Shown here in pieces: positions 2,928 through 8,544 of a stretch of DNA of 64,000 nt. The notes under the pieces are model-generated. The model made no database searches and had not been told where the DNA came from. It saw only the letters and a program-made list of their open reading frames with translations. Within the stretch, counting starts at the first letter, position 1, and the number at the start of each line of letters is the position of its first letter. The stretch lies in contig OY282430.1 of the NCBI GenBank assembly GCA_958296025.1, forward strand, positions 1,922,001 through 1,986,000, given 5' to 3'. This DNA is from an uncultured Pseudomonadales bacterium. GTDB lineage: Bacteria; Pseudomonadota; Gammaproteobacteria; Pseudomonadales; Azotimanducaceae. A program made the position numbers and the translations under genes.

Positions 2928-2962
2928 TGGCGGAGGGCTAGCCGTTTGGAATTTTGGGGCAT
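2928..2962 (+). repeat. Solitary half-copy of the tRNA-Ser-associated repeat
   Basis: A 35-nt sequence matching 6855-6889 at about 31 of 35 positions. It contains TGGCGGAGGG, the complement of the last ten bases of tRNA-Ser, followed by TAGCCGTT and an A/T-rich tail ending in GGGGCAT. It is the only recognisable element in the 271-bp gap between the symporter and the IS, and it ends one base after the IS target duplication begins (at 2961). Confidence 0.6.
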
Positions 2963-2968
2963 ATTTAT
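2961..2968. repeat. Left 8-bp target-site duplication of the IS
   Basis: ATATTTAT stands immediately outside the IS terminus at 2969 and recurs at 4612-4619 immediately outside the other terminus. A perfect 8-bp match at both borders points to a fairly recent insertion. Confidence 0.7.
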
Positions 2969-3208
2969 CCCTAATCCCCTAATAAGGGTCTGCTGGGTGG
3001 AGTTTGAGGGAATTTGGCGGCGGTTCGGTCTGACGTCAAGGTTTGGCGGGGCGTTTGCGCCGGGTTTGGCGTTTGTTGGGGGCTGTGAAGCGGTGGGGGG
3101 CTTGGCGGGAGGGGTGTTTTTCGGCCATTGGGCCGAAGGGCGTCCCGCCTTGGGTTGTCAAGGCGTGTTTAGGCGGGGGTTCGGGTTGGGTTCGCCGGGC
3201 GCTGCAGC

Positions 3209-4504
3209 TCACTCCAGTTGAACCGCGGCCGCGTAGATCCAGTCGAGTCGGAGGTTGGACTTGGCGAAGTCGAGGCGCCAGCGCCCGGCGGCCTTGACCA
3301 GTCGGGCGACCGTTCGGATGAAGTGCCGGATGAGGGGTCGCAGTCCGTGCTTGCGGGCGGACTTGGGCAGCAGGTTGAACTGCACGGCGCGCAGGAGCAT
3401 CTGCGCCAGTTGGCCGCAGGCGTAGAAGACTTGGTTGGCCAGCAGCTTGCGGCAGGGCGGGTGGTGCAGGTCCAGGTCCCGCAGCGGCCCCTTGAAGGCG
3501 TTCTCCTGGCCCTGCTTGCCTCGGTGGCGGCGCACCAACTCCGCAAGCGGCAGGTCATCCCGGGAGACGAGGATGACCGTGTGGACGGGAAAGAGGTCCC
3601 CTTGGGCGTCCTCGAGGAACTTGCGGACCACGACGTAGGGGTGCTCGACCCATCCATCCGGCCTGTGGCGCACCAGCACCGCCTCCTCGCAAAGGCCGAC
3701 GTCCTCCCAGGCGGACTCCGGCAGGCCCTGAAGCTGCGCCAGCACCGGAGCCTTGTAGTTGGGGTGCGTGACGCTGACCGAGCAGTCCCACTCTTGCTTG
3801 CGGCAGAACTCCACGAAGCGCCAACTGTAGTAGGCGTTGTCCGCCCGAACCCAAACGGGCGTCCCCTCGGGCAGCAGAGGGGCCACGTCCGACTCCATTT
3901 GCTCCCGCCAGCCGTGCGCCGCGTGGACCCCGCCCGGATGCAGCCGCCCGGACGCCCACAACCCGCCGACGAACGCGCCGTGCAGCACCAAGGCCCGCTC
4001 CGCCCCCCAGCTGCGCCCCGCCCCCTCGAACAACTCCCCGCCCACCTCAATCTCCGTGCCGTCCACGAACACCGGAACCCAGCCCCTCGCCGCAACCTCA
4101 TGCTCAATGACGGCCGGCGCAACCCGACGGGCCAGCCGACGCGCCGCCTCCAGCAACCCGTTCAGGTCCGCCCCGGAACCCTTCGCCAAAAACTCCCCCA
4201 TCCGCCGGCCCGACGGCGCATGGGAAAGCCCCAACAGCCGACACGCCCCCGGGTCCGCACGCAACTCGTCCAGATCGGACAGCGCCCCGCCGCCCGCCGC
4301 AAGCGACGCCACCAGCGCCCAAAGCGACTCGCCGTCCGACGCCCCGCGCCGCCGAACCTTGACCGACACGCCCTCCGACAAGTCCCCGAAAAGACCCAGA
4401 CGCTCCGCCGTCAGGGCCAAGGCGGACCAGCCCCCGAAGCCCGTCAAGCGGGCGTCCGTGAACTCGTGCTCAACCTTCAGCGGGCGGGGTGTTATGCTTG
4501 CCAT
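3209..4504 (-). CDS. IS transposase, DDE superfamily, IS1380-like, intact
   Basis: 431-aa cut-and-paste transposase. Visible features are the acidic block VFVDGTEIEVGGEL (first catalytic aspartate candidate), WVRADNAYYSWRFVEFCRK (second aspartate candidate) and the C-terminal HRGKQGQENAFKGPLRDL followed by LLANQVFYACGQLAQ, which resembles the terminal catalytic glutamate region of IS1380-type enzymes. I start it at the ATG at 4504, where AGGTG stands about 5 nt upstream and which matches the start of the second copy; an in-frame ATG at 4534 would lie within the upstream hairpin. It is likely functional because the reading frame is whole, unlike the copy at 62107-63320. Confidence 0.85.
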   Translation of the reverse strand: MASITPRPLKVEHEFTDARLTGFGGWSALALTAERLGLFGDLSEGVSVKVRRRGASDGESLWALVASLAAGGGALSDLDELRADPGACRLLGLSHAPSGRRMGEFLAKGSGADLNGLLEAARRLARRVAPAVIEHEVAARGWVPVFVDGTEIEVGGELFEGAGRSWGAERALVLHGAFVGGLWASGRLHPGGVHAAHGWREQMESDVAPLLPEGTPVWVRADNAYYSWRFVEFCRKQEWDCSVSVTHPNYKAPVLAQLQGLPESAWEDVGLCEEAVLVRHRPDGWVEHPYVVVRKFLEDAQGDLFPVHTVILVSRDDLPLAELVRRHRGKQGQENAFKGPLRDLDLHHPPCRKLLANQVFYACGQLAQMLLRAVQFNLLPKSARKHGLRPLIRHFIRTVARLVKAAGRWRLDFAKSNLRLDWIYAAAVQLE

Positions 4505-4521
4505 CGGCGCACCTGCAGGGT

Positions 4522-4556
4522 GGTTTTTGTGCAACCGGCATTTTGCCGGAAAAACC
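4522..4556 (-). promoter_or_regulatory. Conserved hairpin in the transposase 5' leader
   Basis: GGTTTTT...CCGGCATTTTGCCGG..AAAAACC forms an inner 6-bp stem and an outer 7-bp stem just upstream of the transposase start. The same hairpin occurs at 62055-62089 and, degraded, in the fragments near 32925 and 61100. Several insertion sequences use 5'-leader structures to block translation from read-in transcripts; that role here is inference. Confidence 0.55.
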
Positions 4557-4611
4557 CTTGCACGGTGCGCCTTTCAAAGCACTTCAGCGATTTCTTAAGC
4601 GGGGATTGGGG

Positions 4612-4619
4612 ATATTTAT
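4612..4619. repeat. Right 8-bp target-site duplication of the IS
   Basis: ATATTTAT, identical to 2961-2968, directly follows the IS right end. The remaining sequence to 4814 is A/T-rich at first and holds no recognisable gene. Confidence 0.7.
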
Positions 4620-4814
4620 ATAATCCCTTCATTTTTATGTTGAAAGTTCCGCTTCTAAAGTGGCGCGTTTTTTCGTTTTTTGCAATGCGACCATGCTCAG
4701 CCGAATTCTCGGCGCTTTGGTCGCCGCCGAATCACCCTCGGCGCGGGCTTGGGTTCCGCCGCCAACTACCGCCCCATTGTCGACAGCATCCACGCACGGC
4801 CGTTGGCTGACGCT

Positions 4815-6038
4815 TTAGCGCACCTTTCCACGCCGTTTTTCCATTAGGGTCGAAATAGTTCCTCGGTCTCGCGCATCCGGATGCAACTCGAAGTATCGGT
4901 CAAAGCGTCCCTGCGCCGCCGCCAAGTCGGGGCGTCGCGGCAACAGGAGCGCCCGCCCCCATTCGCGGTGCGCCTGCGGCGGCATGTCGTCAGGCGCAGC
5001 CTCGCCTCTTTGGAAGGCGGCTAGCGCCTGTGATATGGCGCCGGCGCGTTCATTCGCCTTGCCGCGCCGCACATGTCGCAGCCACACTTTGGCCTCCATG
5101 TAGGCTGACAGGCCAGCGGGAAATCCGATGTTTCTCTGTTCGTTCGCCACCACTGCAAAACGCGCCGGGTGGATGGACGCCATTTCGTCCGTAAGCCATT
5201 CCTCTCGGTAGTTCGTGAACTTGCTTGTGAACGAGGATAAGTGCGCGTCCAGACCGGCGGCGCTTGCGCCGGCCAAGTTCTGTGCGGCTTCCGTAAGGTA
5301 TCGAATGCGTTTTTTGGGGGCGGGATGCGTTGACAGCAGGCTGAATCCGCTGTCACCGTCCACGGCGTCCTGCTCCGCCACCAGCTTGCGCCACACCGCC
5401 GACGCTCCGCCTGCATCGTATCCGCCTGCCGCCATCCAGCGGATGCCGTCCAAGTCTGCCTCCTGCTCTTGCTTTCGGTTGTAGGCGAACATTTGGTAGA
5501 TGGCGGCCACCTCGGCGAAAGCCACGGCGCTTCCCGCCGTGGACCAGCCGCCCGCCGATCCCGTGCCCGCCTGCGCCACGGCCCCGCCCGCCGACGCCAC
5601 AGCGCCGAGCAACGCCAGTGCGGACGACGTGCGCTTCGCTTTACGCCAACGGTTCAGGGAGTGGCGGCGGACGTAGTGGGACGCCTCGTGTCCCAACACC
5701 GCCGCCAACTCCGCCTCGCTCTCCAGGCGCAGCAGCAAGCCGCTCTGCACGACCATGGTGCCGTTGGGGAGCATGAAGGCGTTGAAGCCGGGTTCTCGGG
5801 CGACGTACACGCGCAATCCGCCGCAATGCTCGCGCACCGCCCTGCAGGTCACTTCCCGCAGGTAGTCGGTTAGTTCCGGGTCGTTGACGTTGCGGTTCGA
5901 CATGCGGATGCCGCGTTCAAGGCGGTCCGCCGTCATGAGCAGCCCGGCCTCGTCCTTCTCGGCGGCAACGGCAAGCGTTGCGCAGCCTGCAAGAACAACG
6001 GCCAGCAAGGCCGCCAAGGACGGCTTCGCTAATCTCAC
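4815..6038 (-). CDS. M48 family metalloprotease, predicted lipoprotein
   Basis: 407-aa zinc metalloprotease of the M48 (Ste24/HtpX-like) family, with the zinc motif HEASH at about residues 117-121 (VLGHEASHYVRRH) and the downstream QEQEADLDGIRWM that supplies the third ligand. The N-terminus carries a lipoprotein signal with lipobox LAGC (Cys19), so it is probably anchored in the periplasm. I start it at the GTG at 6038, which overlaps the stop of the preceding lipoprotein gene as GTGA; a longer ATG start at 6080 would put 14 polar residues before the signal. Related periplasmic M48 proteases such as BepA and LoiP take part in outer-membrane protein quality control. The overlap implies translational coupling with 6035-6751. 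Confidence 0.8.
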   Translation of the reverse strand: MRLAKPSLAALLAVVLAGCATLAVAAEKDEAGLLMTADRLERGIRMSNRNVNDPELTDYLREVTCRAVREHCGGLRVYVAREPGFNAFMLPNGTMVVQSGLLLRLESEAELAAVLGHEASHYVRRHSLNRWRKAKRTSSALALLGAVASAGGAVAQAGTGSAGGWSTAGSAVAFAEVAAIYQMFAYNRKQEQEADLDGIRWMAAGGYDAGGASAVWRKLVAEQDAVDGDSGFSLLSTHPAPKKRIRYLTEAAQNLAGASAAGLDAHLSSFTSKFTNYREEWLTDEMASIHPARFAVVANEQRNIGFPAGLSAYMEAKVWLRHVRRGKANERAGAISQALAAFQRGEAAPDDMPPQAHREWGRALLLPRRPDLAAAQGRFDRYFELHPDARDRGTISTLMEKRRGKVR

Positions 6039-6751
6039 AGCGGAAACTCGCTCATCAGCACGTCCACGGCCTTGCGCCACTGCCTTTCGGACTCGCTGGC
6101 CGGGTCGAAGTTGGCCACGGCGTTGCCCGAATCAAAGTTGGCCCACTTGACATGCCCGTCCCGCAAGTCAATGAGGGCGCAGCGAAACCTGGCGCGGTTG
6201 TGCTCCATGCTGACGCCCGCAAGAGACACCAAGGCTGACGTGGCGATTCTGCCGGCGGAGCTCCTGTTCGCCCTGTACACCAGCGCCAAGGCGTAATCCG
6301 CCCCAGTCGACCGGGCCACCCTATCCCGTTGCGCCTCGTCCATGACGTAAGCGCGGCTGTCACCGATGGCGCTCTTGACCATCGCCAACTCCACCGCGTC
6401 CAAGGTGAGGTTGATGGACTGCCACATGGCGTACTCGTCATCCTCCGTTCCGGCCGGCACGTCCGTGAAATCGACGCCCGCGTCGAACAGGTGGGCATGC
6501 ACCGCGCTCTCCAAGGACTTGGCGACGTGCTCGGACCAGTCCGCCCGCGGCTCCAGCATGCCGCCTGCGGTTTGCAGGGACACCACGGCGTCGGGGCGCA
6601 GCACGGTCAGCGACGGATGCAGGGGCGCCTGCAGCGCCGTGCCCGAATGGTAAACGACGTTGGGGGCGACGCACCCCGCCAGCAAAAAGATTGCGCAGGT
6701 TGCTAGCAGGCGCGCTGCATTTAGGTGGAAGTGATGGCGTATGGTCGGCAT
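6035..6751 (-). CDS. Predicted lipoprotein of unknown function
   Basis: 238-aa protein with a clear lipoprotein signal (hydrophobic stretch then LLAGC; lipobox Cys27). I do not recognise the mature domain. It overlaps the M48 protease start by four bases, so the two form an operon and may work together at the envelope. The start ATG at 6751 precedes the signal peptide and needs no adjustment. Confidence 0.7.
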   Translation of the reverse strand: MPTIRHHFHLNAARLLATCAIFLLAGCVAPNVVYHSGTALQAPLHPSLTVLRPDAVVSLQTAGGMLEPRADWSEHVAKSLESAVHAHLFDAGVDFTDVPAGTEDDEYAMWQSINLTLDAVELAMVKSAIGDSRAYVMDEAQRDRVARSTGADYALALVYRANRSSAGRIATSALVSLAGVSMEHNRARFRCALIDLRDGHVKWANFDSGNAVANFDPASESERQWRKAVDVLMSEFPL

Positions 6752-6830
6752 GGTCTGCTCCTAGGTTGTGGCTGATGAGAGATGGGGATGCGCAGTCCGC
6801 ACAGGTCCCCCCTTCGATTTGGACGAATTA

Positions 6831-6889
6831 TGCCCCAAAATTGCGAACGGCTATGGCGGAGGGCTAGCCGTTCGCAATTTTTCGGCATT
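6831..6889. repeat. Palindromic tRNA-Ser-associated repeat (outer attachment-like copy)
   Basis: Two 24-nt arms (6831-6854 and 6866-6889) are inverted copies at 22 of 24 positions around the 11-nt centre TGGCGGAGGGC. Read on the minus strand, 6864-6831 is CCCTCCGCCA (the end of tRNA-Ser with its CCA) followed by the tRNA's own downstream flank, matching 8466-8433 at 31 of 34 positions in the same direction. That is the layout expected of an attachment-site duplication bordering an insertion at the tRNA 3' end. The rest of the 6752-7059 gap is A/T-rich with no recognised gene and probably holds the promoter of the following pair. Confidence 0.65.
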
Positions 6890-7059
6890 TTCCGTTTTTC
6901 CTAAATAAAACCAACAGCTTGCCTGAAAATTAAGTTGGCGCAAATTCGCCATCTTTTTTGTGCCATCATGAATGGCGCACCCTAATCAGCCGTTTTCATG
7001 CACTGCGGAGTGAAGTGGTATTGTAAGGGGTGCATCAACTAGTGATGGAGTCGTTTAAC

Positions 7060-7383
7060 ATGGACCATGACGGAAACGCCGACGAACGGACTTCCGGGCC
7101 GCGGGGGCTGGAGGATGACCGCATTCGGATGGTGGGTGAAGCCGCTTATGAAGCGATGCTGGGCATAGGTGTGCCGGCGGATGTGGCGGCACGGGAAGTG
7201 GCCGCGTACGGGGCGGAGCAACGCTACGAGACGCCGCCGCCACCGCCAGGCCCCCGCATGCTGGGCAGAGAGATGAACAAGCGTCTAGCGAACCCCGACT
7301 GGGATCGGTTTTTAGGCCGCCCAGCGGACGCTGACGACCTGGAGGACGAGTTCGGACGCAGCCTGCTGCTTGGGAGGAAATGA
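7060..7383 (+). CDS. Small acidic, proline-containing protein; candidate antitoxin partner
   Basis: 107-aa protein that I do not recognise. It is rich in acidic residues, with a helical-looking middle (VADVAAREVAAYGAEQ), a proline run (TPPPPPGP) and an acidic end (DADDLEDEFG). The ATG at 7060 is preferred because GGAG lies 9 nt upstream; in-frame GTG at 7030 and ATG at 7045 lack a well-spaced site. It ends in an ATGA overlap with the following PIN-like gene. A short acidic gene coupled ahead of a PIN-like nuclease is the usual antitoxin-toxin arrangement, but no DNA-binding fold is evident, so antitoxin is a hypothesis. Confidence 0.6.
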   Translation: MDHDGNADERTSGPRGLEDDRIRMVGEAAYEAMLGIGVPADVAAREVAAYGAEQRYETPPPPPGPRMLGREMNKRLANPDWDRFLGRPADADDLEDEFGRSLLLGRK

Positions 7384-8279
7384 ACGGACTCATGGATGAT
7401 CGCAAACGACAAGTTGGCTTCGACGCCAACATCATGCGCAATCCCACGCCCAGAAGATTTTTCCTGTCCTTCGTGGAGAAGCACGGAGCGCAGGCGCACC
7501 TATCGCCCACTGCACAGTCGCAAATCATATGGGAAGTGGGCTCTGCAGAACGGCAAAATTGGCAAAACAAGCGCCTGCAGCAAGGCACTGTGCATCAGGG
7601 CGGCGAGCAGACGGTGCTGAATGCGGTGGCGGAGGCTGCGAGGGCGTGGGGCCGAGAATCGTTCATGCAGCCGAGCGCCATCATCAACCCGCATGCACTT
7701 GACGACACGGAGATGGCCCTTGCGCACTCCCTGTACGACAACATGCCCGACTACTGCTTCCAGTCCGCAGGATCGCCCAGCACCTTGGCCGATAAGCGCA
7801 TCCTGTCGGAGACGGCTGCGGCGGCAGTCCCCATCATCATCAGCCAGAACATGACGTCGATCGTTCAGCGCAACGTCAATGCTTGGCTGCGCGATAATGG
7901 CTTGCAGAGACTGTCCATTATGTTTTGTGATGAATACATTGACCGTTGGCTGCGGGCGGGAGATAAGAAAGGCATCTGCAGAGAGGGCCTGCTGCTTGAC
8001 ATAGCCTGTGGTCCCTGCCTACCGGAACATGGGCGTGGCGTAGAGGATGACGTGCGCGCAGTATCGGCCTTCCTAGGTTGGATGTGTGAGACGACAGGAG
8101 CGCCATTGCAACAGACAGGCATTCTTCTGAAATCCCGCTTGGGCAGGGAAAGCACCGCCCAACTCGAAGATCGTTTCAACAAAGTGCGCCAATCTTTGCC
8201 TAAAGCCACTAGGTCATTGGAAAGCGACAGAGTGCGCCGCGTGGACCAAGCCGCCGAAGAGTCCGGCTGGTCGCTCTAA
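7380..8279 (+). CDS. PIN-like domain protein, putative toxin nuclease
   Basis: 299-aa protein whose segments line up with the PIN nuclease pattern: VGFDANIM near the N-terminus (D15), an acidic residue in IIWEVGS (E52), LADKRILSETAAAAVPIIISQN with D138 and E144, and N157 where PIN folds place a conserved Asp/Asn before the last strand. These would form the acidic metal site. The stretch of about 130 residues after it is unassigned and could be a specificity domain. It overlaps the upstream gene by ATGA and stops before tRNA-Ser. PIN toxins of the VapC type cut tRNA or rRNA. The protein is about twice VapC length, so it is not a standard VapC. The PIN assignment is from motif spacing only. Confidence 0.6.
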   Translation: MNGLMDDRKRQVGFDANIMRNPTPRRFFLSFVEKHGAQAHLSPTAQSQIIWEVGSAERQNWQNKRLQQGTVHQGGEQTVLNAVAEAARAWGRESFMQPSAIINPHALDDTEMALAHSLYDNMPDYCFQSAGSPSTLADKRILSETAAAAVPIIISQNMTSIVQRNVNAWLRDNGLQRLSIMFCDEYIDRWLRAGDKKGICREGLLLDIACGPCLPEHGRGVEDDVRAVSAFLGWMCETTGAPLQQTGILLKSRLGRESTAQLEDRFNKVRQSLPKATRSLESDRVRRVDQAAEESGWSL

Positions 8280-8432
8280 GCCCGCCGCCGCGATAAACTT
8301 CGGCGCAAATGCGCTTGGCAAGCAGCCGTTTGGTGGGAAGTTGGTGTTCCAGCCCCCAAAGCACCACTGTGACAACAGATCGATTTTTAAGGGGAATTCG
8401 GGGTTTTCGACCCAGGCGGGAAACGGGCAAAA

Positions 8433-8466
8433 ATGCCGAAAAATTCCGAACGGCTATGGCGGAGGG
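8433..8466 (-). repeat. Inner attachment-like direct repeat at the tRNA-Ser 3' end
   Basis: On the minus strand this is the last ten bases of tRNA-Ser followed by a 24-nt flank beginning TAGCCGTTCGG. It repeats in the same direction at 6864-6831 with three mismatches. The two copies enclose the 7060-8279 gene pair. Confidence 0.6.
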
Positions 8467-8544
8467 GCAGGGATTCGAACCCTGGGAAGCTCTCGCTTCG
8501 CTGGTTTTCAAGACCAGTGCTTTCGACCGCTCAGCCACCCCTCC
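8457..8544 (-). tRNA. tRNA-Ser (anticodon UGA)
   Basis: 88-nt class II tRNA read on the minus strand. The acceptor strand starts GGAGGGG and closes with CCCCTCC plus discriminator G and an encoded CCA. The anticodon arm CTGGTCTTGAAAACCAG carries TGA (bases 8510-8508), a long variable arm follows, and the T arm is GGGTTCGAATCCC. It reads UCA and UCG-type serine codons. Confidence 0.95.

Follow-up and report, generated by a model that had tools for sequence, protein, structure and literature searches.

We analysed the 64,000-nt stretch of contig OY282430.1 from position 1,922,001 to 1,986,000 (the window), which belongs to the genome of an uncultured Pseudomonadales bacterium of the Azotimanducaceae (G000; one contig, 3.9 Mb, 96.7% complete) and in which two overlapping genes form a short islet directly behind a tRNA-Ser(UGA) gene. 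The original prediction, which was based on a 34-nt direct repeat of the tRNA end, had explained this islet as a minimal island that lacks an integrase and was mobilised in trans or decayed to its cargo. The islet, here termed E1, is bounded by terminal inverted repeats (TIRs) and very probably belongs, as a DDE-type transposon that is non-autonomous, to the 'mobile insertion cassettes' (MICs); it stands in an array behind tRNA-Ser. The evidence, read from sequence throughout, consists of the TIRs, exact 9-bp target-site duplications, unoccupied or differently filled tRNA ends in related genomes, conservation of the ends and transposase remnants inside such ends. The order in the window is tRNA-Ser(UGA), E1, duplication, E2, duplication and flank, with the following features (aa, amino acids; ORF, open reading frame):

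8457..8544, minus strand: tRNA-Ser(UGA), encoded CCA included (ARAGORN).
8458..8466, minus strand: target-site duplication copy 1, CCCTCCGCC, within the tRNA 3' end; 9/9 identical to copies 2 and 3.
6865..8456, minus strand: E1, 1592 bp, a probable non-autonomous transposon with TIRs TAGCCGTTC...GAACGGCTA (TIR pair, end pairing and duplication).
8430..8456, minus strand: a-end (tRNA-proximal) TIR of E1 (inverted repeat and end alignment).
6865..6891, plus strand: b-end (distal) TIR of E1 (inverted repeat and end alignment).
8280..8456, minus strand: a-end subterminal region of E1, in which an open transposase frame is absent.
7030..7383, plus strand: ORF1, 117 aa, putative partner or antitoxin, with a possible in-frame ATG at 7060 (ORF list).
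7380..8279, plus strand: ORF2, 299 aa, PIN-like protein overlapping ORF1 by 4 bases (relatives at L018 and L090, weak VapC fold match).
6855..6863, minus strand: target-site duplication copy 2, between E1 and E2; 9/9 identical.
2939..6853, minus strand: E2, 3915 bp, second unit of the array (end pairing with a 9/9 duplication).
2929..2937, minus strand: target-site duplication copy 3, at the outer edge of the array and followed by the old flank AAAAGGG...; 9/9 identical.

The direct repeat, with 31 of 34 positions identical between 8433-8466 and 6830-6863 (the second copy had been placed one base off), and the two overlapping genes between its copies (ORFs 7030-7383 and 7380-8279) are present as originally described. 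Two features had been overlooked, namely a 27-bp inverted repeat, 96% complementary, at the edges of the islet (6865-6891 and 8430-8456) and, at 2929-2937, a third occurrence of the tRNA end, which closes the second unit, E2. The description as a two-gene islet holds, but the islet belongs to an array of two units (E1 and E2) rather than being a minimal island. CCA is also encoded in all seven same-genus tRNA-Ser(UGA) genes that were read. Region 8280..8456 of E1 is the counterpart of the leader that precedes the transposase start in other a-ends, as judged by the a-end consensus and an intact copy (L051) in a second genome.

The repeat clearly exceeds chance expectation: with up to 3 mismatches allowed, the genome contains a 24-nt core 13 times and the reversed control pattern not once, and a 16-nt core has 15 exact copies. 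Copies lie directly behind the tRNA-Ser genes UGA, GGA, CGA and GCU and, with one mismatch, behind tRNA-Asp; further copies, which had also been overlooked, are found at junctions farther out and at other insertion sites. The part TGGCGGAGGG is the reverse complement of the tRNA 3' end including CCA, and in the outer copies it mostly matches the local tRNA (GGAGGG at Ser-UGA, GGAGAG in the other Ser arrays, GGAGCG at Asp), with the exceptions of GGAAGG at 1773751 and of a GGAGAG copy at 2989490 that is away from any tRNA. The rest of the repeat is the TIR, TAGCCGTTC..., which is present as several subfamilies. Because the outer copies mostly follow the local tRNA and the remainder is TIR, each copy of the 34-nt repeat joins a tRNA end to a TIR: at the tRNA this is the original end with the TIR of E1, and farther out a duplicated end with the TIR of E2. 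The tRNA sequence, 9-10 bp, is the target-site duplication, and the remaining 24 bp belong to the TIRs of two separate units. A dispersed repeat unrelated to insertions had been named as an observation that would speak against an inserted element; the repeat is indeed dispersed, but its dispersed copies are themselves insertions. Among 12 relatives, the TIR pattern had 47 matches in a genome of the same genus (G005), 4 in G001, 2 in G003, 1 each in G010 and G013 and none in the other seven. Because the reversed control gave 0-4 matches per genome, only G005 clearly stands out.

A first estimate of 10-11 bp for the target duplication was dropped in favour of 9 bp, because the base preceding the TIR, which is A at nearly all a-ends and C at nearly all b-ends, separates the two types of ends. 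Outside tRNA-like flanks, we compared 70 a-b pairs in G000 and 286 in G005 (356 in total) and found exact 9-bp duplications for one pair in G000 (2987021/2993348) and four pairs in G005 (4114770/4118328, 1869329/1871725, 1825108/1830260 and 925748/956591), with approximately 0.0003 and 0.001 expected, respectively; one additional G000 pair matches at 8 of 9 positions. The G000 pair (2987021-2993348; L021:3021-9348) encloses two units at a non-tRNA site with one outer duplication, ATCTCGTCA, and carries a copy of the tRNA-Ser end, CTCTCCGCC, between both units; it looks as if a two-unit array had moved out of a tRNA site as one block.

As an alternative to serial transposition, the arrays could have grown through unequal crossing over or homologous recombination, with dispersed TIR repeats as partners. 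The junction sequences are repeats that could recombine, some junctions look rearranged (subterminal sequence from a different unit comes after the b-end at 3350054), and the two-unit composite at 2987021-2993348 with its internal tRNA-end copy would fit such events. We nevertheless consider this origin unlikely, since exact 9-bp duplications at unrelated sites need insertion, as does a transposase-bearing end beside tRNA-Ser in the genomes G001 and G099. Recombination may, however, reshuffle units.

The region of the window tRNA was sought in nine genomes of the genus, G000 included. Seven of the eight others gave a tRNA-Ser(UGA) gene, and G002 had no match to this region. The tRNA gene has no TIR behind it in five of the eight (G001, G003, G004, G006 and G008), the tRNA end itself being different in G004 (CTCCACCA), and G007 carries a short TIR-like sequence at this place. 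In G005, four units follow each other in a row (2885160-2892873) with CCCTCCGCC between the units and two further b-type ends inside; the genes of this array include 250-aa and 265-aa proteins without a Pfam match and an AAA ATPase, and not the PIN-like pair. Both comparisons that had been proposed as checks thus came out in favour of an insertion, with a unit-free 3' end in five same-genus genomes and different genes at the same tRNA in G005. The symporter gene that flanks the array in the window was not found in the 4.7-17 kb stretches around the tRNA in any of the seven relatives; because the outer gene order is not conserved, the unit-free ends do not count as strict empty sites with identical flanks.

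In G000 and G005 together, we collected 41 a-ends and 49 b-ends and aligned the two largest subfamilies. The main subfamily (19 a-ends, 22 b-ends) has a tip identity of 0.95, and its identity stays above 0.5 over approximately 260 columns in a-ends and nearly 120 in b-ends before it falls to background; the second subfamily (8 a-ends, 11 b-ends) shows a similar, weaker pattern. The a-end consensus continues into the start of the transposase. These ends also bear on an integron-like capture of cassettes by a site-specific recombinase, with the junction hairpin acting in the manner of attC. Head-to-tail cassettes, the palindromic junction GAACGGCTA-11 nt-TAGCCGTTC and the often defence-like cargo resemble such a system, but the units have two different ends with long conserved subterminal regions, lone units with target duplications exist, and no integron integrase was among the proteins scanned, although no specific search for it was made. 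An integron-like origin is hardly credible on these grounds.

Between the ends lies varied cargo. In G000, where units also stand behind tRNA-Ser GGA, CGA and GCU and tRNA-Asp, it includes genes for type III restriction-modification, AAA ATPases, a DNA methylase and a nucleotidyltransferase as well as an AbiEii-like gene; G005 units contain a HipA protein and one that scores below the Pfam HepT-like cut-off. PADLOC matched four of ten cargo proteins at E up to 0.01 (the type III restriction enzyme and methylase, a type II-like methylase and, weakly, one ATPase); the other six, both PIN-like proteins included, had no match. Several proteins are without any match, and some cargo, such as that of E2, is not defence-like:

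6035..6751, minus strand: lipoprotein-like protein, 238 aa (no Pfam match; lipoprotein by eye).
4815..6080, minus strand: M48 family peptidase, 421 aa (Pfam PF01435, E 8.8e-30).
3209..4534, minus strand: unrelated insertion sequence within E2 with a DDE_Tnp_1_4 transposase (Pfam PF13701, E 1.9e-15).

The insertion sequence at 3209-4534 is also present in the tRNA-Ser(GCU) unit (L023:5071-6777; shared long antisense frame). An ATPase of 380-500 aa that carries the motif PYLAGRE, or one like it, lies in or beside units of three genomes (L018:14027-15370, L022:11399-12802, L067:11183-12691, L066:4222-5697 and L090:4111-5256) and is sometimes the sole larger gene of a unit; all four of these five ATPases that were scanned are AAA_22 by Pfam.

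Six zinc-ribbon transposase remnants were found in G000, each at a distance of no more than approximately 420 bp inward from an a-end, and the transposase whose remnant sequence lies inside the ends has a DDE-like alignment. Transposase matches occurred in 3 of 58 genomes, G000 counted. G005 encodes an intact protein of 636 aa (L051:1225-3132) inside the a-end at 925748 of a 30.8-kb element that extends to the b-end at 956591. Both edges of this element share the 9-bp flank CTCAGCGAG, and it splits an MFS transporter gene, whose joined flanks form one open frame. The element is a composite, because a tRNA-Ser(GCU) gene and other ends lie inside it; this tRNA gene, at 946409-946497, has a TIR-like sequence close behind it.

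The intact protein is above cut-off for no Pfam or NCBIfam family; it has no IS1 model match, and its Zn domain reaches 16.5 bits against a cut-off of 28. Its AlphaFold model is of low confidence (predicted local distance difference test, pLDDT, 51.6), and the best Foldseek matches, all at E of at least 0.02 and none at 0.001, include Argonaute proteins, the Mos1 and P element transposases, UvrC and endonuclease V, which we take to be RNase-H-like, together with unrelated proteins. No homologues were found in plasmids, phages or viral contigs. Directly behind tRNA-Ser, with the TIR adjoining CCA, lie a frame-shifted copy in G001 and a remnant in G099, a genome of another family, whose second transposase copy (L084) does not lie at a tRNA gene. 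A tree of 17 N-terminal stretches, two of which fill less than half of their rows, unites the G000 fragments, the G005 and G001 copies and the two G099 copies in a clade with 100/100 support on a long branch. A second transposase lineage (L032:5474-6442 and the G000 fragments 3344819 and 1764701), which occurs inside units of the same TIR family, is placed between the tRNA-Ser clade and the rest.

The likely mobilising enzyme is a DDE-type transposase. In a minimal integrase-type islet or satellite, the 34-nt repeat would instead represent attL and attR, with a tyrosine integrase acting in trans. The tRNA 3' end site, the direct repeat, the tandem stacking and the absence of an integrase gene inside are all compatible with such an islet. 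However, E1 has full TIRs at both ends, its tRNA-like part is just 9-10 bp and tracks the local tRNA, the same ends occur at five unrelated sites with exact 9-bp duplications, and the ends enclose remnant sequence from a transposase that has a DDE-like alignment as well as fold matches of the RNase-H-like type. The cargo proteins scanned included no integrase, although no integrase-specific genome search was made. An integrase-type islet is therefore very unlikely, and the att reading of the repeat was rejected on the TIRs, the 9-bp duplications and the transposase remnants. What remains of the original explanation is an inserted element at the tRNA 3' end that lacks its own mobility gene and would have moved in trans or decayed since; the repeat is not an integrase att site, and the enzyme that moved the element was probably not an integrase.

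E1 as a DDE-type transposon has counterparts among known systems. MICs are non-autonomous elements derived from insertion sequences that carry passenger genes. E1 likewise has two transposon ends and passenger genes, lacks a transposase, which presumably acts in trans, and is flanked by a 9-bp target duplication. L051 is a relative that combines these ends with an intact transposase, and E1 may have been moved in trans. Unlike MICs, the present units have long conserved ends, stack in one orientation behind tRNA-Ser and tRNA-Asp and often carry defence-like cargo, and their transposase is unrecognised at cut-off by whole-protein Pfam and NCBIfam family models. IS1 has a target duplication of approximately 9 bp, and the 9-bp duplication, weak matches to the NCBIfam IS1 model and to IS1_IS1595_Zn and the RNase-H-like fold matches all recall the IS1 and IS1595 families. 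None of nine proteins passed the IS1 family model (best score among the matches listed 45.6 bits against a cut-off of 100), and, in contrast to these families, only the Zn/HTH part matches, the proteins have approximately 480-860 aa, and the elements carry passenger genes and insert at hairpins or tRNA ends.

Integrase islands at tRNA sites and tycheposons occupy tRNA 3' ends, swap cargo and have enzyme-less satellites. The present units share the site, the cargo swaps and the enzyme-less state but differ in their TIRs, in the staggered duplication and in having a DDE-like transposase where those islands have an integrase; instead of one shared att sequence without TIRs, there are TIRs and a shared tRNA part of 9-10 bp. 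Tn7-like elements and casposons at tRNA ends are also TIR-bounded, bear cargo and insert at the tRNA 3' end. Tn7-like elements duplicate 5 bp and casposons about 14-15 bp, and these general duplication lengths, together with the different end sequences, set them apart from the present units with 9 bp.

Wider searches for the transposase gave matches in 4 of 369 genomes at class level and, with a profile, in 17 of 398 at phylum level, G000 counted in both. Among the distant members, we analysed eight elements from six genomes, those with visible TIRs; no clear TIR was found around the G218 homologue (L086) or, in short scans, around the copies L099 and L102 of genus g334, and the analysis of element edges left out L084, L108, L121 and the remaining g334 copies. 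All eight elements have exact 9-bp duplications within a shift of approximately 1 base. Six of them have a stem of 11 or more pairs, with one mismatch tolerated, whose centre falls in the duplication, compared with 0 of 1000 random stretches each; a seventh has a 7-pair stem (27 of 1000 random stretches), and L119 has no hairpin at its insertion site. By total fold energy alone, L115, L118 and L119 are unremarkable. By eye, the empty sites resemble intrinsic terminators with T runs, for example AGCCCCGC-ATAA-GCGGGGCT. A DNA methylase gene lies beside the transposase and between the TIRs in four of the eight (L114/L093, L116/L094, L117/L095 and L115/L109). Weak IS1 zinc-ribbon matches recur among eight relatives scanned, with L097 narrowly passing the Zn-domain cut-off (28.5 against 28 bits), and the relative L098 carries a DnaQ domain.

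This DnaQ-like 3'-5' exonuclease at the transposase N-terminus is in one frame in L098:682-3255 and in two frames in L110/L112 (G739, G404), and the DnaQ-linked elements L120 and L118 both lie in hairpins with a T run. In genus g334, each of eight genomes has exactly one relative of approximately 500 aa (L099-L106), beside a purine nucleoside phosphorylase-like or TPR-like gene at all five loci read (L099-L103); this relative is possibly a domesticated transposase.

A broader reading, to which we give an even chance, is that an unnamed IS1-related transposon group recognises the ends of transcription units, with most of the analysed distant members lying in the middle of intrinsic-terminator hairpins, and that one clade moved to tRNA-Ser 3' ends. 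There it would stack interchangeable defence cassettes in an integron-like way, and a transposase acting in trans would move them singly or several at once. The sequence comparisons support a hairpin-targeting group with a cassette-stacking tRNA-end clade; against hairpin targeting in the window's own clade, a stem of more than 5 pairs occurs at none of its five non-tRNA sites. Within a limited literature search, no earlier description of such a transposase group was found.

The cargo of E1 was predicted to be a PIN-like two-gene module. ORF1 has no Pfam match at E up to 10; a small gene lies in an ORF1-like place in L090 (by eye). ORF2 has no Pfam PIN match. A relative of ORF2 lies in another G000 unit (23% identity over 145 aa, E 2e-4), and G003 has two more, of which one follows a small gene and lies within a TIR-like end; D15, N17 and D138 are invariant in the four. 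The ORF2 model (pLDDT 66.4) has no match at E 0.001; its top-ranked match is a chance one, followed by the PIN protein VapC4 at E 1.8. PIN-like proteins were not found in plasmids. ORF2 is likely but not securely PIN-like, because there is no significant structural match. From gene order, a toxin-antitoxin function of ORF1 and ORF2 would be a guess.

Several observations weigh against E1 as a trans-mobilised, tRNA-targeting transposon with a PIN-like module. The PIN assignment is weak. Searches of G000 found transposase fragments and no intact transposase, so the present mobility of E1 is unproven, and two of these fragments (near 3351597 and 3185819) are at no recognised a-end. The intact copy in G005 is at a non-tRNA site and none was seen behind a tRNA, which leaves tRNA targeting by the intact protein hypothetical. 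For 8 of 43 ends in G000 (10 of 43 if the 8-of-9 pair is rejected) and 22 of 52 in G005, we found no flank resembling a tRNA end and no partner with a matching duplication, which means that decay, rearrangement or missed partners are common. The a and b labels depend on the base preceding the TIR, and the tRNA itself supplies that A with its CCA. The interior sequence, judged by eye, indicates an a-end in seven of the eight tRNA-adjacent ends of G000 and G005; the eighth, at G005 946503, diverges just past the TIR and gives no such support.

Under the transposon reading, E1 would consist of two conserved ends of about 120-250 bp each that flank unrelated cargo, here the PIN-like module, and would have inserted directly behind the CCA of tRNA-Ser(UGA), duplicating 9 bp of the tRNA end. 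Because insertion would copy the tRNA end to the far side and place the a-end beside the tRNA, repeated insertions would stack head-to-tail, and E1 and E2 probably represent such an array. The mobiliser would be the zinc-ribbon transposase that is intact in G005, either supplied in trans or lost since, and tRNA targeting may be built into its clade. The cargo would be a toxin-antitoxin-like or anti-phage module that is kept or spread for defence.

Such elements would provide a transposon-based route, distinct from integrons and integrase islands, to collect and swap small defence modules, for which the tRNA-Ser end would be a safe and always present site. The recurring ends offer a handle for searches, since anything between them is candidate cargo and may include unknown defence genes, and the contrast between terminator hairpins and tRNA ends in one transposase group would make the target choice of a DDE transposase testable.

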